NCBI RefSeq assembly: GCF_001625445.1 | Contig: NZ_LWHG01000021.1 | Coordinates: 1-64,000, forward strand | Length of the DNA: 64,000 nucleotides | Source of the DNA: Haladaptatus sp. R4 | GTDB lineage: Archaea; Halobacteriota; Halobacteria; Halobacteriales; Haladaptataceae | Direction of reading: 5' to 3' | The notes under the pieces: generated by a model | Told to the model about the DNA's origin: nothing | Seen by the model: only the letters and a program-made list of their open reading frames with translations | Database searches by the model: none | Part shown: piece after piece, positions 31,098 through 41,374 of the stretch | Numbering within the stretch: the first letter of the stretch is position 1 | Layout: each line of letters opens with the position of its first letter | Translations under genes and position numbers: made by a program

Positions 31098-31355
31098 TTA
31101 CAGCATATCCTTCTGTTTCATCCCCTCGATGAGGTCATCGACGAGTTCGTCGACGGTATCGTAGGGGAAATCCTGCGCGTCGTTCATCTTCGTCGCCAGT
31201 TCCATCGCGGTCAGACTGGTGTCGCCCGCTTCGAAACGCGTACCGGGTCCGTTCGGGAGCGCCGGAACGAGTTCCATCGGGTTGCTGACCGGGTAATCCG
31301 CGCCTTCGAATGCGTCGTGAAACTGCTGTCGGAATTCCGCTTCTTTGTCGGCCAT
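31098..31355 (-). CDS. MTH865-like small protein
   Basis: MADKEAEFRQQFHDAFEGADYPV, then PNGPGTRFEAGDTSLTAMELA and FPYDTVDELVDDLIEGM fit the MTH865 family, a small EF-hand-like helical fold without a known function. At 85 aa it has the family length. The upstream 17 residues in frame (MYCGSGTF...) are unrelated and were left out. Confidence 0.8.
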   Translation of the reverse strand: MADKEAEFRQQFHDAFEGADYPVSNPMELVPALPNGPGTRFEAGDTSLTAMELATKMNDAQDFPYDTVDELVDDLIEGMKQKDML

Positions 31356-31467
31356 GTCACTCCTTGTGTGGGTAATCGGCAAAAACGTTCCGGAACCACA
31401 ATACACAAGTTGTGAGTTTATTCACCGCTTCAGGGAGGTTTATACTCCGATACGCGAGAGATTCGGT

Positions 31468-32515
31468 ATGGCATTCGATTTCGATTTCGACTTGTTATGC
31501 GAACTGACGGAGACGAACGGGGCGGCGGGATACGAGGACCGGATCCGCGAAATCGTTCGACGGGAAATGGAACCCGAAGTGGACGAACTCTACACCGATG
31601 CGATGGGGAACGTCATCGGAACCATCGAGGGGACGGGGGACTACGAAGTCGCCGTCGCGGCACACATGGACGAGATCGGGTTCATGGTTCGCTACGTGGA
31701 CGACGACGGGTTCGTCTCACTGGACGCGCTCGGCGGGTGGGACCCCCGTGTTCTGCGAGCACAGCGCGTCACCGTCCACACGGACGACGAGGACCTGACG
31801 GGCGTCATCGGGTCGGTACCGCCGCATCTCCTGGACGGCGACGAAGGAGAGGAGGACGTCGAGGATATCTACGTCGACCTCGGCCTCCCGGCCGACGAGG
31901 CCGACGAACGCGTCTCCGTAGGCGACATCGTCACGATGGAACAGACGACGACGAAAGTCGGTAACAACGTCTCCGGCAAGGCACTGGACGACCGCATCTG
32001 TCTGTTCTCCATGCTGGAGGCGGCGAAACGCATCGAGAACCCGGACGCGACCATCCACTTCTGTGCGACCGTTCAGGAGGAAGTGGGCCTTCGTGGTGCG
32101 ACCGCGCTCGGTGTCGACGTCGACCCCGACCTCGCAGTCGGCCGACGTGACCGTCGCGAACGACTTTCCGGCGGTGAGTAAGAAGCGGGATTACGTGACT
32201 CGTCTCGGGGACGGCACCGCGATAAAGCTCAAGGATGGCAGCGTCGTCACGACGCCGAAAGTACACAAACGAATGCGCTCGGTGGCGGAATCGGAGGACA
32301 TCCCATACCAACTCGAAGTGCTCCCGTCGGGCGGGACGGACACCGCCGGGTTCCAGAACACCTACGGCGCGAAGCCAGTCGGCGCGATCTCGATTCCGAC
32401 CCGATATCTCCACACCGTCACCGAGAGCGCCAACGGCGACGACGTGTCGGCGACCATCGACCTGCTCACCGCCTTCCTCGAAACCGAGGACGGCGAGCAC
32501 GACTACTCGTTGTAG
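31468..32515 (+). CDS. M42-family metallopeptidase, frameshifted
   Basis: M42 enzymes are zinc/cobalt aminopeptidases of the TET/PepA type. The N part has ETNGAAGYEDRIREIVR, AAHMDEIGFMVRYV, the bridging-metal segment NVSGKALDDRI and the catalytic Glu in VQEEVGLRGA. After DPDLAV the frame is lost near 32139-32141. The other plus frame resumes VTVANDFPAVSKKRDYVTRLGDGTAIKLKDG... and SGGTDTAGFQNT... to the stop at 32515. The total length then matches the family. The ATG at 31468 is chosen from homology. Confidence 0.87.
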
Positions 32516-34343: not shown

Positions 34344-34772
34344 CTACTTGAGACGTTCTTGAAGAAACGACGGATGGGCCGCGGTGACGCCGTCGATGGT
34401 GAGAATGTCGTCACTGATGACGGTGCCGACCGCGCCGCCGTTCGGTGCGCGAACTTCGGCCATCAGCATGTGGTCGCCGCTACACGTGTAGAGGGTGTCG
34501 ATATCGTCCAGATTTTGGAGCGCCCGCGTCGCTTCGACGTACCGTTCACTTTCGACATCGATGCCCACGAGCGCGATGCTCTGACTGGACAGCTTCTTCG
34601 GGTCGATCTCGGCGGAATAGCCGACGATAACGCCTTCCTCTTCGAGCTTTTCGATGTACTTTCGAACCGTTGGCTTCGAAACACCAGCGCGATTCGCGAT
34701 TTCCGAGTACGACGCCTGTGCATCGTCCTCTAAGACGTGGAGGATACGGTCTTCGGTCGATTCCGTACTCAT
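34344..34772 (-). CDS. Lrp/AsnC-family regulator
   Basis: An N-terminal winged helix (EDRILHVLEDDAQASYSEIANRAGVSKPTVRKYIEKLEEEGVIVGY) is followed by the RAM ligand-binding domain (IALVGIDVESERYVEATRALQNLDDIDTLYTCSGDHMLMAEVRA). At 142 aa it is typical. It lies 105 bp downstream of korB on the same strand. It may sense an amino or 2-oxo acid and control korAB, but that link is inferred from position only. Confidence 0.9.
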   Translation of the reverse strand: MSTESTEDRILHVLEDDAQASYSEIANRAGVSKPTVRKYIEKLEEEGVIVGYSAEIDPKKLSSQSIALVGIDVESERYVEATRALQNLDDIDTLYTCSGDHMLMAEVRAPNGGAVGTVISDDILTIDGVTAAHPSFLQERLK

Positions 34773-34876
34773 GATACCAGGATGTTTCCCGCACAGGAAA
34801 AAATACCTTGCGAAGTGAAAAACACATTGGCGGCCACGAAAAGGTTGTTCGAACCGACGAGAACGGCGAAACGAGA

Positions 34877-35810
34877 TTACTTGTGGCGGTCGAGCAGGTC
34901 GTAGCTCCGTTCCCACTCGTAATCGTCGTCGAAGTACCGCTCGGCGAGCGGCGATTCCGGCATGTCGCCGGTCGACTGTTTCTCCTGCTGGTAGGAGGGT
35001 CGCTCGTCGTTCACGTAGAAGCGCCCGGTGAGGACTTTGCCCTCGTAGAGCGTCCTCGGTGTCGTGCGCCATCTGCATCGCTTCACGACGGTCGTGAACG
35101 TCGAAGTCGTAGTCGTCGCTGTCCTGCACGTCGATGTACGGGACGTACTGCTTTGCGTCCTTGTTCCACGTCGGGCACTGCGTGAGGAAGTCCACGTGTG
35201 CGAACCCGTCGTGTTCCATCGCCTCGGTGAGGATTTCCTTCGCCTGGTTCGGGTTGACCGCCGCCGTTCGGGCGACGTACGTCGCACCCGAGGTGATCGA
35301 GAGCGAGAGCGGTCGAATCGGACTCTTCGCGCTCCCTTTCGGTTGGGTCTTCGACTTGTGTCCCTTCGGCGACGTGGGCGAGGTCTGCCCCTTCGTCAGT
35401 CCGAAGATCTCGTTGTCGAAGACGATGTAGGTCATGTCGTGGTTCTCACGAGCCGTGTGCATGAAGTGGTTCCCGCCGATTCCGTAGCCGTCACCGTCAC
35501 CGCCAGCGGCGATGACTTCGAGGTCGGGGTTTGCCATCTTGGCCGCGCGTGCGACCGGTAGGGAGCGCCCGTGGATGGAGTGGAAGCCGTAGCTCTGGAA
35601 GTAGCTCGATAGCTTCCCGGAACAGCCGATACCGGTGACGAGGAGCGTCTCGTCCGGCGTGCGGCCGACCTCGGGCATCGCCTGTTTCAGCGCCTTGAGG
35701 ACGCCGAAGTCACCACAGCCCGGACACCACGTCGCCTGTGGTTCGAGGCTGGGCGTGAACTCGTTCACGTCGATGTCTCGTTCTTCGTCGATTGCGTTGA
35801 ATACACTCAT
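34877..35810 (-). CDS. korB: 2-oxoacid:ferredoxin oxidoreductase beta subunit, frameshifted
   Basis: The beta subunit binds thiamine diphosphate: TWCPGCGDFGVLKAL near residue 27, GIGCSGKLSSYF, the metal site AAGGDGDGYGIGGNHF and NDEIFGLTKGQTSPTS-type loop (DNEIFGLTKGQTSPTSPKG). After MAHDTEDAL the first frame becomes Arg-rich and runs into the lrp gene; a second frame gives LYEGKVLTGRFYVNDERPSYQQEKQ to the stop at 34877. The break is near 35050 (one base extra or two missing). The start at 35810 is 2 bp from the korA stop. The reaction is decarboxylation of a 2-oxoacid with ferredoxin reduction and CoA. Confidence 0.88.
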
Positions 35811-35812
35811 TT

Positions 35813-37701
35813 TCAGTCACCCGTTGCGGATTCGATGCGCGTGTTGTGCGCTGGGTTGGCGTCGCCGTCGATTCGTGCTTCGAAGCCGTCAACGACTTCC
35901 GAAGGCTCGAACGGGTTGCCGTCGTATTTCAGCAGGCTGAACAGCTTATCGCCGTGCTTGCCGGTCGCGCCTGGATGTGTCGGCGGAACTGTGCCGTGGC
36001 GTTCATCTCGACGACGAGCACCTCGTCGACGTCTTCGAGGAAGGCGTTGACCTCCTTCTTCGGGAACGGCACCATGTCGCTGACGTTCATCGTCTTGACC
36101 GAGTGGCCGTCCTCGTTCAGCATTTCGACGCCCTCTTCGACGGCACCCTTCATGCTACCGAAGCTGAGGATGGCGTAGTCGGCGTCCTCGTCGCCGTAGA
36201 CGGTCTGGTGGGACTCGTCCATGTCGTCGAGTTCCTCGCGGATGGCCGCGAGTTTCTCCATACGACGGTCCATCTGCGTGACACGGTTGTCCGGGTCCTC
36301 ACTGATGTGACCGGCTTCGTTGTGCTCGTTACCCGAGGCGAGGAAGTTGCCGCCCTTCTGTCCCGGCAGGGACCGCGGACTGACGCCGTTCTCGCCGTCG
36401 TAGCGGTAGCGCTTGAATCGACCGGCGAGGCGTTCTCCCTGCTCGATTTCCTCTTCCGTAACGACTTCGCCGATGTCCGGGTTCGGATCACGGTCGAACG
36501 TCGATTCCGGAACGGTTTCGTGACCGCCGGAGAGCTTCTGGTCGTAGAGGATGATGCTCGGAAGCTGGTAGTTGTACGCGAGTTCGAACGCCTTTCGCGT
36601 CTGGATGTACGATTCGCGTGCGTCACCCGGCGCGAACACGACGCGGTTCGAGTCTCCCTGACTCGTGTACAGGACGTGTTCGAGGTCGCCCTGTTCGGGT
36701 TTCGTCGGCATCCCGGTCGATGGACCGGCACGCATCGATTCGACCAACACGAGGGGCGTCTCGTTGATTTCGGCGAGACCCAGCGGTTCGGACATCAGTG
36801 CGAACCCACCGCCGGACGACCCGCTCATCGCCTTTGCGCCCGCGTGGCTCGCACCGATTGCGAGCGCCGCGGCGGCGATCTCGTCCTCGACCTGCTCGGA
36901 AATCCCGCCGAGGTCGGGGAGATGTTGGGTCATGATGGTGAACACGTCCGTCCACGGTGTCATCGGGTATCCGGAGATGAACCGGCATCCCTCGTCGATG
37001 GCACCGTAGGCGATACCGTGGCTGCCCGAGATGAGCACCTTGTCGTCGTCGTAGTCGCTCTCGGGGAGCGTGACGCCGACGTCCGTGTCGTAGTTCTCGT
37101 TGAGGTCCTCGTAGGCCGCACGGAGGACTTCGAGGTTCGGTTCGAGGATTTTCTCCGGCATGGCCTCGGCCATCAGGTCTTCGATGATGTCGAGTTCCAT
37201 CCCGATGATGGCGCAGGTCGCGCCGACACCGGCCGTGTTTCGCATGATCTCACGACCGTACTCCTTGGCGAGTCCGCGGAGGTCCAGATCGAAGACGTGC
37301 CAGTTGTTCTCCTCGACACGTGCATCGAAGTCCGGAATGTCGTCGGTGTCGAGCAAGCCGGAGTCGTAAATGATGACTCCACCCTCGCGGAGTTCGTCCA
37401 AGTTCTCCGTCAGGGGCTTGATTTCCTCGTTACCGTAGTATGCTTCTTCCTGTGGGTTCCGCGCGAAACTGTCTCCGAGCGCGAGGAGGAAGTTGTAATT
37501 GTCCCCGCGCGATTTGACTTCGTGGTCCGCCGCGCGAATCTCCACGTAGGTGTGGCCGCCGCGAATGCGCGACGGATAGTGTCGGTGCGTGAATACGTGT
37601 AACCCTGCTCGCATGAGGGCTTTTGCGAAGTTCTGACTCGTCGAGTCGATCCCGTCACCGGAACCGCCTGCGATTCGCCAGATGAGTTCGTCATCCGTCA
37701 T
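35813..37701 (-). CDS. korA: 2-oxoacid:ferredoxin oxidoreductase alpha subunit, frameshifted
   Basis: This is the haloarchaeal fused gamma-alpha chain of the enzyme with korB. The gamma-type domain has AGGSGDGIDSTSQNFAKAL and SRIRGGHTYVEIRAA; the alpha part has SGSHGIAYGAIDEGCRF and ISGYPMTPWTDVF, and SGSSGGGFALMSEPLGLA. The first frame ends ARPASTAISCSAC at 35929. A one-base deletion near 35970 hides the true end ATGKHGDKLFSLLKYDGNPFEPSEVV... with TGA at 35813-35815. With it restored the protein has about 629 residues. The start MTDDELIWRIAG (37701) is preferred over one 27 codons upstream. Confidence 0.9.
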
Positions 37702-37999
37702 AATTGAAACTCCATGGCCTCCCGGGCCTGGTGGATAAGAATTGTATCGCATGCTGGTAAAGCCTTTGCCATAGATTGGCAAGGAACTTTTGTGATAGAT
37801 GGCGTCTACCGGCTGATTTCACCGTTTCTCCTAGAATAAACTTCCTATTTAGTAATGGTTATTTAAATAGCAATAAATGAACGCGAAGGTTATCTCAGTC
37901 TCGTTACAAAGTCGCCAAACCTATTAATAGTTTAATATAATATGAGATATAAATCAAATAGCTTTTTAAAGCAAAGGGACACAAAACTCGCAGAATTGC
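37702..37999. other. AT-rich divergent promoter region
   Basis: The stretch between korA and the PKD-protein gene is much poorer in GC than the rest. It contains several TATA-like sequences, for example TTTAAATAG near 37862, TTTAATATAATATG near 37930 and TTTTTAAAG near 37966. It probably carries promoters for both directions. No gene is seen. Confidence 0.6.
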
Positions 38000-40900
38000 A
38001 TGAACCGAGTCGTCACGAGTATTTCAGTAGTACTCCTCCTCACGACAGTATTTTTCCCGGCGATAGCGGCGGCAAACGAACCGCCGCTCGCTGACGCTGG
38101 ACTCGACCAGCACGTCGCGCGCGGAAGCACAGTCCTCCTCGATGCCTCCGGATCACACGACCCGGACAGCCACATCGAGCGATACGAGTGGTCGATACGA
38201 ACCCCGGACGGGCGAACGATCACGCCGAACTGTCGAACGTGTCCGCAGACCCGGTTTCACCCGAACGAAGTCGGACGATACGCGGTTTCCCTGACGGTTA
38301 CCGACGAGGACGGGACGAGCAGTCACGACACGTTGTACGTAACCGTCGCTCCGGGAGACGGTCCGTCTGTCGACGTGTCCGGCCCAGAAAACCCACACGT
38401 CGGCGAACAGTCGGTGTACTCCGTAACCGTCAATGCCGGTGCGGCACCCCTCAACCACGTCGTGTGGTCGCTTGACGGAAAAACGGTCGCCACGGACTCC
38501 CTTTCTGGCGGCAACGATGCCGAAACCCTCACACGAACGTTTTCGAACGCAGGAACGCGGACCGTCACGGCGACGGCCTACGATACGGACGGTCAAACCG
38601 ACACTGACACGCTGCGTATCTCCGTCCAAGCGAATCGTGCCCCATCAGTACCACGAGATACACTCGCGAATCGGTTCTCACCCACGATTTCCGGGGACGA
38701 ATTGGTCACCGGTACTACACCGCTCCGAGGAACCTACAGCATCCAATCCACGGCTACGTCGTCGCAGGTACGCTCCATCACGTGGTTCGGTGACGGTGCA
38801 CAGACCGGTAACGGTCGGGCACTGGCGGCGAAATGGAAACCCGGCGACCATTCGTTGTATGCTCTCGTCACCTATTCGGATGGTTCCCGCAACATCGCAC
38901 GCTTTTCGGGTGGAACAACGACCGTCACAGCCGATCCAAAACCGACCGTCAAGTTACCCTCTTTCGATACCTTCGGGTCCGTCTCCGGCAGTGCGTATGC
39001 GACTGATGCGTATGCGAACTTGAAGTCAGTTCACGTCAAACTCGGCGGCAAGGAAATCGGACGCACGAAAATGGACGCCACCACACCCGGTGGGATGCAG
39101 CGCCACCGGACGGTGTCGTTCGACTCGAAGGATTTCAAGCCCGGTGAGAAGTATACGCTCACCGTCTCCGCAGTTGACACACGCGGGCAGACAACGACGC
39201 TCACGCGGACGATAACCCCCTCGAAAATGCCGGAGATCGTTCAATCCGGATTCGTCAACAACGACGTGGATTCGTATAATACGCGAATCGATCCGAAACG
39301 ATATATTGCACATCACGTAACGAAGATCAAATTGAACGGAGTGGATCCTAGTAGCGTACAAATAGCAGACTCAAATGTGAATCCAGATATCCATGATCTA
39401 TCTAAGAGCAGAAGCACAGATGAAGGGGTATTGGTTGTTAAGGAAGATATTGCAGGCAATCATCCTGGCAAATACAATATTAACTCCAGATATTTTGTTT
39501 TGAATGATAAAAGGGAGCAGATGAGTGAAAAGCTCCATAGCAAATCTACGCTACACGTGACTCCTTCTCCTCCAGAAATCCGGTTGGACGTCACCAACGA
39601 TGGCACAAATGGCTACAGGGCAATTAACTGGGGTATTGTTGTAGACGCGAGCGGTTCGTTTGACCCAGACCATACAAAATTGAGATATGTCTGGATGAAA
39701 GGTGCTCAACCAATCACTGCAGACAATAAAACAGCAAAATTTTCATCAGTCAGTTTTGCAGAATTGAAGATTAAGGATCGATATGGCCTAACGGCGAAAA
39801 AGAAGTTCAATTATCTCAATGATTATGTTCCAAATGTTCAATCGGTTAAGGAACTCTCAAACGGTCCTTACAAACCGAACGATACAGTCAGACTTCGAGT
39901 GACTACAAATGGATTCCAATTCAGTAAGAACAGATACCAATATAATTACCATTTGGGCATCGATGTTAAGGGCGCATCTGGTTCCGTTGTAGATTGGAAA
40001 AAGCATGGAGTAAAGGACAAGAATAAAACTATCAACCAGAAGAGTGGAGAAGTTCGAATGTATACCGGAATCGTGGAAATTCCTGCCTCGGAGTTGTTCC
40101 AGACGAACGGGCAAGCGAAAATCCGAGTATACAACGAAAACAAGCCGGAGACGTACAAGGAGGTGGATATTCCCGACGTCACAGTGTACAGAAACTATGG
40201 GAAACGATGGACGAATCCCAGAATCAAGGACACGAGCTACTTGGTGAACCAACCAATTTACGACTGGAAGACAACCAAATCACCGACGGAACGTGACCAG
40301 TATCTCTCGAACGGATATTCCGTGGATGAGAAAACGCGGGACGGATTCGAGTATGCGATTCAAAAGCGGACGAAGGTTGCGGATGCTAAATACAAAGACG
40401 TCGATCGAAGCTTCTCGACCAAGCTACAACAGTCCGCATTTCTCCAAGTACACCCGGACTGGTGGTCCAACGGTCGGACGGCGAAAAAACGGACGTACAC
40501 GACGACGGAACACGAGTGGCGTGACTCGAAATCCGGAAAAGGGACGTTCACGGGTGACACTCGGCGGGTGCAGACGTCTCCGGCACAGTATCGGATGCTG
40601 AACCAGTACGCACACAGACACGACGTGCAGAAAACAGGGACGAAAACGGTGAGAAAGCGGAAAACTGTCACCGTGACCAAAACGGGGACAAAATACGTCA
40701 TGCAGTGTAGCCGGTATGGTATCTGCATGGAAGTGCCGAAGCAGTACACCTACACGGATACGGTCACCAGAACGTACACGACGACCGAGTACTACACGTA
40801 TACCGTCACCGAGACGGATTATTACTGGTCGTACCAGAAGTTCCACTACGACGATTGGGCGACTGGGAAGCAGAAACGACGAAAAGTCGAGGATGCTCAA

Positions 40901-41374
40901 TACGAGACGCAGTATTATTACGAATACAAGGAGCAGCACACGGACGTCGACTACACCTACGACGTCCAAACGAGGAAGAAAGTTCAGGATGCGCAGTACG
41001 AGTGGCAAGATAAACTGACGACGACGAAATTGGACCTTGCAATGTCGTACTCCCAACTCGATGGTTGGCGAATCGGGGAGGCACAGCCAAACGTACGGTG
41101 GGACCTGAAGAAACAGACTGGATCGAAAACGACGACTTCAGATGTTCACCTAGAGGGCGATACCGTCCTCAAGACGTACGTTACCGCAAAAGTAGATGTC
41201 GTTCAGCAGTACGTCACTCAGGATAGCAAAATCAAGAACGAATCTGTCGGTAGCAAGATCGTCCACGAGTCGTATCACAAGTTTGTAACAAAATATAAGA
41301 TTAGGAAACTACTCAAATCACGACACAAAAAAGAGGGTGATACAGACGACAAAGGATTGCACTACACGAAGTAA
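38000..41374 (+). CDS. giant secreted PKD-domain protein with Tyr/Thr/Lys-rich C-terminal region
   Basis: The 1124-residue protein starts with a Sec signal peptide (residues 1-25). PKD-like modules follow: PLADAGLDQHVARGSTVLLDASGSHDPDSHIERYEWSI, a second near residue 118, and another near 530 (IVVDASGSFDPDHTKLRYVWM). From about residue 780 it becomes rich in Tyr, Thr, Lys and Gln. A motif of the form [RK]-K-V-x-D-A-x-Y recurs near residues 789, 958 and 991, with a looser copy near 853. The segment TYTTTEYYTYTVTETDYY and the pair CSRYGIC lie near 902-940. DNA composition changes: GC-rich to about 39250, AT-rich to about 40050, then intermediate. No membrane anchor is seen. It may be a surface fibre or adhesin; the function is unknown. 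Confidence 0.85.
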   Translation: MNRVVTSISVVLLLTTVFFPAIAAANEPPLADAGLDQHVARGSTVLLDASGSHDPDSHIERYEWSIRTPDGRTITPNCRTCPQTRFHPNEVGRYAVSLTVTDEDGTSSHDTLYVTVAPGDGPSVDVSGPENPHVGEQSVYSVTVNAGAAPLNHVVWSLDGKTVATDSLSGGNDAETLTRTFSNAGTRTVTATAYDTDGQTDTDTLRISVQANRAPSVPRDTLANRFSPTISGDELVTGTTPLRGTYSIQSTATSSQVRSITWFGDGAQTGNGRALAAKWKPGDHSLYALVTYSDGSRNIARFSGGTTTVTADPKPTVKLPSFDTFGSVSGSAYATDAYANLKSVHVKLGGKEIGRTKMDATTPGGMQRHRTVSFDSKDFKPGEKYTLTVSAVDTRGQTTTLTRTITPSKMPEIVQSGFVNNDVDSYNTRIDPKRYIAHHVTKIKLNGVDPSSVQIADSNVNPDIHDLSKSRSTDEGVLVVKEDIAGNHPGKYNINSRYFVLNDKREQMSEKLHSKSTLHVTPSPPEIRLDVTNDGTNGYRAINWGIVVDASGSFDPDHTKLRYVWMKGAQPITADNKTAKFSSVSFAELKIKDRYGLTAKKKFNYLNDYVPNVQSVKELSNGPYKPNDTVRLRVTTNGFQFSKNRYQYNYHLGIDVKGASGSVVDWKKHGVKDKNKTINQKSGEVRMYTGIVEIPASELFQTNGQAKIRVYNENKPETYKEVDIPDVTVYRNYGKRWTNPRIKDTSYLVNQPIYDWKTTKSPTERDQYLSNGYSVDEKTRDGFEYAIQKRTKVADAKYKDVDRSFSTKLQQSAFLQVHPDWWSNGRTAKKRTYTTTEHEWRDSKSGKGTFTGDTRRVQTSPAQYRMLNQYAHRHDVQKTGTKTVRKRKTVTVTKTGTKYVMQCSRYGICMEVPKQYTYTDTVTRTYTTTEYYTYTVTETDYYWSYQKFHYDDWATGKQKRRKVEDAQYETQYYYEYKEQHTDVDYTYDVQTRKKVQDAQYEWQDKLTTTKLDLAMSYSQLDGWRIGEAQPNVRWDLKKQTGSKTTTSDVHLEGDTVLKTYVTAKVDVVQQYVTQDSKIKNESVGSKIVHESYHKFVTKYKIRKLLKSRHKKEGDTDDKGLHYTK

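Follow-up and report, generated by a model that had tools for sequence, protein, structure and literature searches.

A conserved haloarchaeal gene pair encoding a putative surface protein with an exchanged Ig-like cassette and a predicted long beta-hairpin

The locus described here raises a question of origin and use: how did one gene come to combine a GC-rich N part with an AT-rich middle and a Tyr/Thr-rich C part, and what might its product do together with that of the following gene? The window that we analysed is a stretch of 64,000 nucleotides from Haladaptatus sp. R4, in which the gene (P1) and its neighbour (P2) are mapped in Table 1. The first-pass annotation had attributed the composition breaks of P1 to recombination of parts with different origins, and had suspected an undescribed surface structure formed with the partner.

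Architecture of P1 and its partner

The reading frame and its composition breaks, both noted earlier, were confirmed by the ORF and by the GC profile. GC fell from ~0.61 at 38000-38500 to ~0.42 at 39250-40250 and recovered to ~0.53 in the C part; by domain, from N to C, the values in the window were 0.61, 0.58, 0.41, 0.42, 0.44 and 0.51. The full length is kept within the genus (1131 and 1111 aa in relatives). Residues 1-25 look, by eye, like an N-terminal Sec-type signal peptide, and we recognized no anchor in P1 itself. The candidate promoter is placed between P1 and the divergent porA.

Table 1. Features of the P1/P2 locus, in positions of the window
Feature	Position	Strand	Residues	Description or basis
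Candidate promoter, AT-rich	37836..37999	+		Upstream of operon; consensus matches to TTTAAAT / TATAAT-like elements
P1	38000..41374	+	1-1124	ATG start; 1124-aa secreted multidomain surface protein, secretion read from sequence alone
PKD domain	38075..38353	+	26-118	Pfam PF18911, E 2.4e-12
Ig-like beta-sandwich array, GC-normal	38354..39229	+	119-410	AlphaFold2 model, Ig-type PDB matches
Conserved leading edge of variable Ig-like domain	39230..39349	+	411-450	FVNGPVDSYHERID..RYTAHHV..IDLNGVDP
Codon-composition change point	39326..39328	+	443	
HV1 hypervariable cassette	39356..39553	+	453-518	Within Ig-like domain 411-523
Middle beta domains	39569..40189	+	524-730	Strongest co-variation with P2; AlphaFold2 model, co-variation
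C-terminal Tyr/Thr-rich domain	40190..41278	+	731-1093	Very long predicted beta strands
Near-duplication copies	40517-40615, 40823-40939		840-872, 942-980	
Predicted giant beta-hairpin	40586..40831	+	863-944	Two arms, strict Thr alternation
Hairpin tip C903-x5-C909	40706..40726	+	903-909	Likely disulfide
P2	41415..42356	+	1-313	313 aa; N-terminal signal/anchor, two Ig-like domains, C-terminal transmembrane helix
HV2, first Ig-like domain of P2	41499..41834	+	29-140	Fast-evolving
Transmembrane helix of P2	42297..42350	+	295-312	C-terminal

The PKD domain matched PF18911 with 47.2 bits over residues 26-116 (curated cut-off 27) and aligned in structure with the PKD-like domain of ColH (4u6t; Z 13.7, 1.2 A, 86 residues). 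A fold search with the whole of P1 returned generic Ig-array proteins, and only residues 26-220 tested well. For the C part, a known family was looked for and no credible relative appeared among Pfam, PHROGs and PDB sequences, which agrees with the earlier suspicion of novelty. Within 393 genomes of the phylum, no C domain turned up beyond Halobacteria. Phages yielded no relative of the C part and IMG/VR contigs none of P1; on plasmids, similarity was limited to the PKD/Ig domains of the N half.

The description of the C part as basic and Tyr-rich held for the window, with a net charge of +5.6 per 100 residues and 9.1% Tyr, compared to -9.0 and 2.4% in the flanking proteins, but the basic charge did not extend to the family. 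The orthologue means were -1.1 for charge, 6.3% for Tyr and 14.5% for Thr. Tyr richness is thus family-wide and the basic charge partly peculiar to this genome, while the C part across the family is far less acidic than the proteome, yet not basic. The repeated motif [RK]KVxDAxY was also borne out by two exact copies (961 and 993) and one near copy, TKVADAKY (791); shuffling the C part 20,000 times gave at least one copy in only 3 cases. A shorter form, V..A.Y, stands at the strand starts 798, 864, 968 and 1000, and is kept in about half to two thirds of the orthologues. In addition, the sequence W-x(~12)-TGxxRRVxV..A.Y.T is nearly duplicated within the C domain, with one copy at each base of the long hairpin.

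A structure prediction for beta-fibre folds had been proposed as a check, and AlphaFold2 predicted very long strands in this region (731-759, 774-794, 822-841, 863-903, 909-944, 967-996 and 1023-1047), with a pLDDT of ~60-85 in the C part, ~60-75 in the hairpin and a whole-chain pTM of 0.35. In the model, strands 863-903 and 909-944 pair into a single hairpin of ~40 residues per arm with a Cys-x5-Cys tip, and both tip cysteines are present in 33 of 39 orthologues. Measured from sequence anchors, the arms were 38/32, 36/30, 28/21, 24/18, 22/16 and 7/6 residues long in different orthologues and shortened jointly (r = 0.995 over 39 orthologues); because the sequences are interrelated, this represents about five independent events, not 39. 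In the window, Thr occupies alternate residues on one face only (8:0 in one arm, 1:11 in the other). The predicted hairpin is independently confirmed by its co-varying arm lengths. Most of it is absent in two of the full-length orthologues. With its matched arms, it is one of the few instances in which the sequence by itself offers a test of a long beta structure known from prediction.

P2 was modelled as two Ig-like domains and a helix, with a pLDDT of 87.8. CARDB (PF07705) matched one of 37 members (E 0.0038), and the resemblance of the first domain to the biofilm scaffold RbmA (Z 9.7, 2.0 A, 89 residues) is within the range of unrelated Ig rows. A second P2 homologue (E 4.5e-66) lies away from the P1-P2 locus in a Haloarchaeobius-type genome (G204:C30:262043-262801).

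Among the 391 haloarchaeal genomes, 50 had a P1 that extends beyond the N-terminal PKD part, and strong P2 matches were confined to exactly these 50; in the remaining 341 there was a strong match to neither. The few extra P2 matches, with E near 1e-6, were short pieces of other proteins. In the loci that we read, P2 directly follows P1 and in some overlaps it. In many genomes, from several families, the pair is flanked by divergent porA and by mrp/moaA/ribosomal genes; in others it lies elsewhere. This is most simply read as a locus of old age, often passed on vertically and at times lost. The middle of P1 and the whole of P2 co-vary beyond species distance (partial r 0.73-0.80; 0.42 for P1 524-730 against P2 residues 29-140), and this co-variation, together with the co-occurrence, suggests that the two proteins are in contact. 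P1 and P2 appear to be an obligate pair in an undescribed haloarchaeal surface system, much as had been suspected.

Several housekeeping genes beside the pair look frameshifted in this assembly. On the minus strand, porB (34344-35810 / 34877-35287) loses its frame and continues into an Lrp/AsnC gene, with its true tail in another frame, and porA (35929-37782) has a wrong-frame end; on the plus strand, the M42 peptidase gene (31345-32515) is split.

Intragenic recombination and the HV1 cassette

We compared 96 close pairs of P1 sequences, each pair from different species and with one genome per species. Mean identity per 20-residue bin was 0.87 at 421-440, then 0.55, 0.21 (461-480), 0.39 and 0.30, and returned to 0.80 at 521-540. 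In 88 of the 96 pairs HV1 was less than 45% identical while its flanks exceeded 62%. The clearest case is a Halorussus pair (L224 and L225) with flanks 90 and 94% identical and an HV1 that is 24% identical without a gap; nucleotide identity was 0.27-0.51 in the HV1 core and ~0.9 outside.

Silent sites changed with the residues. At identical residues, L224 and L225 used the same silent codon at 5 of 15 positions in HV1 compared to 222 of 267 in the flanks (p = 5e-5). Two other pairs gave 4/21 against 133/222 and 15/39 against 169/245, and the contrast was non-significant in seven further pairs. The tree signal switched too: the flanks group L224 with L225, whereas HV1 groups L224 with L223 (p = 2e-21). 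Groupings from the N part and from HV1 disagree in Halobacterium (p 6e-15), and in Haladaptatus the conflict is at the C-terminal end (p 7e-15); these p-values assume independent sites and therefore overstate the certainty. The sharp drop in identity and the switches in silent codons and tree signal show that intragenic recombination occurred in P1, with HV1 as its sharpest target. No donor of HV1 was found, and no pair in the set had an HV1 clearly more alike than its flanks.

Hydrophobic core positions are kept within HV1 (453, 455, 467, 478, 480, 484, 492, 494, 498, 518 and 520), which indicates that the Ig-like fold is retained while the remainder changes. HV2 of P2 evolves fast as well. 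Strict joint exchange of HV1 and HV2 was considered and dropped, since the partial r was 0.11 once the flanks were allowed for. Despite the change of HV1 between L224 and L225, their P2 residues 29-140 remained 87% identical, which makes it improbable that P2 is bound through HV1.

We suggest, with a probability of about 50%, that P1 and P2 make up a membrane-tethered surface mast that presents a recombinationally diversified recognition domain. The anatomy, the obligate pairing and the cassette exchange are well supported; the tethering, the orientation, the selective agent and the recognition function we infer. In this two-protein apparatus P1 would be exported by Sec, and P2, as a membrane protein, would hold the anchorless P1 at the cell; the most economical arrangement is that P2 grips P1 by its middle domains. 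Going outward, the predicted chain would run through PKD and Ig-like domains to a rigid beta antenna with a disulfide-closed tip, and from the domain count and strand length the mast may be near 30-40 nm long. HV1, swapped wholesale between close relatives at sharp and conserved edges, would be the outward face that contacts other cells or a virus, and its continued replacement may be driven by selection for novel types. A lasting AT-rich codon usage, with its centre on HV1 and the first part of P2, accompanies this fast turnover. The pair is a concrete and genetically approachable candidate for surface variation against viruses, or for mutual recognition, in halophilic archaea.

It is also possible, though rather unlikely, that P1 and P2 are mainly a structural or adhesive scaffold, associated with biofilm or the S-layer, in which HV1 merely tolerates change. 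Adhesins usually carry Ig/PKD arrays, and the RbmA-like fold of the first P2 domain points the same way, with a Z in the range of unrelated Ig rows. Tolerance alone, however, does not explain the sharp edges of the cassette and its exchange between lineages.

We consider it unlikely that HV1 was not swapped at all and diverged in place under very strong positive selection on surface loops. Such divergence would fit a cassette that keeps its hydrophobic core and varies at other positions, but in the three pairs given above the silent codons diverged in HV1 and not in the flanks, and the tree signal changes within HV1. Swapping and in-place divergence may both be acting, given the pairs without a significant silent-site contrast.

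The codon-composition break

GC3 was corrected for amino-acid content against the flanking genes of each genome. The corrected value was near normal to residue ~440 and dropped by ~0.3 at ~443. When the change point was estimated gene by gene in 39 orthologues, the median was 442 and the interquartile range 421-446; in a few the step was weak or placed differently. GC3 was below expectation in all 39 in the bins 441-480, 481-520 and 521-560. The minimum of the trough lay at 441-520; the trough was less marked at 760-1000, deepened once more where P1 ends and P2 begins, and had disappeared by P2 residue ~200. The orthologue sets of the flanking housekeeping genes had a flat profile. Codon identity at identical residues was at or near chance between most orthologues; with silent sites so near saturation, the composition is maintained or regenerated, and not inherited from one event.

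These results bear on the view that a GC-rich haloarchaeal N part was recently joined in this genome to a foreign AT-rich and Tyr-rich C part. The GC step inside the gene and the basic C part of this genome speak for it, but we regard it as highly improbable. The architecture and the step recur in 38 orthologues from several families, often at one locus, near-saturated silent sites do not allow the composition to date from a single event, and the step falls inside the predicted domain 411-523, not at a domain border. A simple joining of N and C parts in this genome is refuted, since the orthologues share both the layout and the GC profile. Each of the 38 full-length orthologues that we examined had a related C part, their locus was for the most part conserved, and the occurrence of the pair in 50 genomes, often at one ancestral locus, argues that this part is not a foreign graft. 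The annotated recombination was thus real in the form of the 66-residue HV1 cassette, whereas a different origin of the C part and a recent mosaic, the latter to be judged by composition in relatives, had to be given up.

Conservation accounts for part of the codon pattern (Spearman 0.55-0.63 across bins), and in prokaryotes conserved and variable stretches are known to differ in codon choice (PMC7374057). Conservation alone was ruled out as the cause of the trough, because equally conserved windows differ on the two sides of the step. A conserved DNA or RNA element at the step was also rejected, since identical silent codons were not enriched at 421-510 and Rfam gave no match. Because orthologues with saturated silent sites switch at one and the same residue, the break provides a clean natural experiment on the determinants of GC3, whether recombination, codon selection or turnover. 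Diversity-generating retroelements vary surface-exposed domains, and it is hardly credible that one targets the Ig-like domain of P1: reverse transcriptase (PF00078) gave 0 matches in the window's genome, an incomplete assembly, while control genomes matched, and the differences include length changes, not sparse substitutions.

Comparison with known systems

The N-terminal ~200 residues of P1 are common to many PKD-domain proteins (PF18911) of ~460 aa in Haloarculaceae, which have other, acidic C parts and occur without P2. More widely, the signal-PKD-Ig start (~210 residues) is 40-60% identical to that of many haloarchaeal secreted proteins with unrelated acidic C parts (L109-L163), and so resembles a front module in general use. 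A variant of ~900 aa in Halobaculum and Halolamina (L141:5001-7700, L150:4989-7703, L158:4983-7736) starts with the same PKD part and ends in a C part rich in Trp, Tyr and Thr. It adjoins porA in L141 and L072 and is followed, in place of P2, by a small secreted protein resembling a CAP/SCP-domain lipoprotein. Its GC3 drops similarly after the PKD part in most cases, and a profile comparison with the C part of P1 gave a weak match (31% probability).

In the cell-wall island of Haloquadratum walsbyi, surface genes are diversified by homologous recombination, including an event of ~250 bp in an S-layer gene (PMC4535781), which shows that such exchange occurs in haloarchaea. That island holds many genes in one species, whereas the P1/P2 locus is conserved, consists of two genes and carries its cassette at a fixed place.

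In the anatomy of the pair, the nearest system is WxL/WxLIP of Gram-positive bacteria, a likeness without sequence support. These are obligate neighbours, and WxLIP binds a large surface protein (PMC10599100). P2 shares with WxLIP two Ig-like domains and a C-terminal membrane helix, and the Z of 8.2 between the P2 model and WxLIP 9i25 is that of a common Ig arrangement. DUF916, DUF3324 and WxL had no Pfam match in 37 P2 members (to E 0.1) or in P1 (to E 1), and the archaeal envelope, unlike that of the WxL/WxLIP hosts, is devoid of peptidoglycan.

The nearest described kind is VARTIG of Thermococcales (arCOG07710; PMC8416519). In both, a large secreted multi-Ig protein heads the operon (its secretion, for P1, being a reading of the sequence), one Ig domain is hypervariable through recombination between species, and a smaller downstream gene has Ig domains. 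However, the variable domain is the most C-terminal Ig domain in VARTIG and internal in P1 (453-518 of 1124). The downstream genes of VARTIG are shuffled into unique combinations in variable islands, while P1 always has the same partner and the pair is often at a fixed chromosomal locus with frequently conserved flanks. The C-terminal beta antenna is an addition of P1. As a tentative extension, the pair could represent a class-wide haloarchaeal system of self/non-self or virus recognition, in which the exchanged Ig-like cassette is the analogue of VARTIG and a new disulfide-tipped giant beta-hairpin is tuned in length by paired deletions. Because the position of the variable domain and the gene layout differ, we do not file P1/P2 as VARTIG, but it works like VARTIG. 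No counterpart outside Thermococcales was reported (PMC8416519), and the claim that archaea outside that order have no hypervariable Ig modules may need revision.
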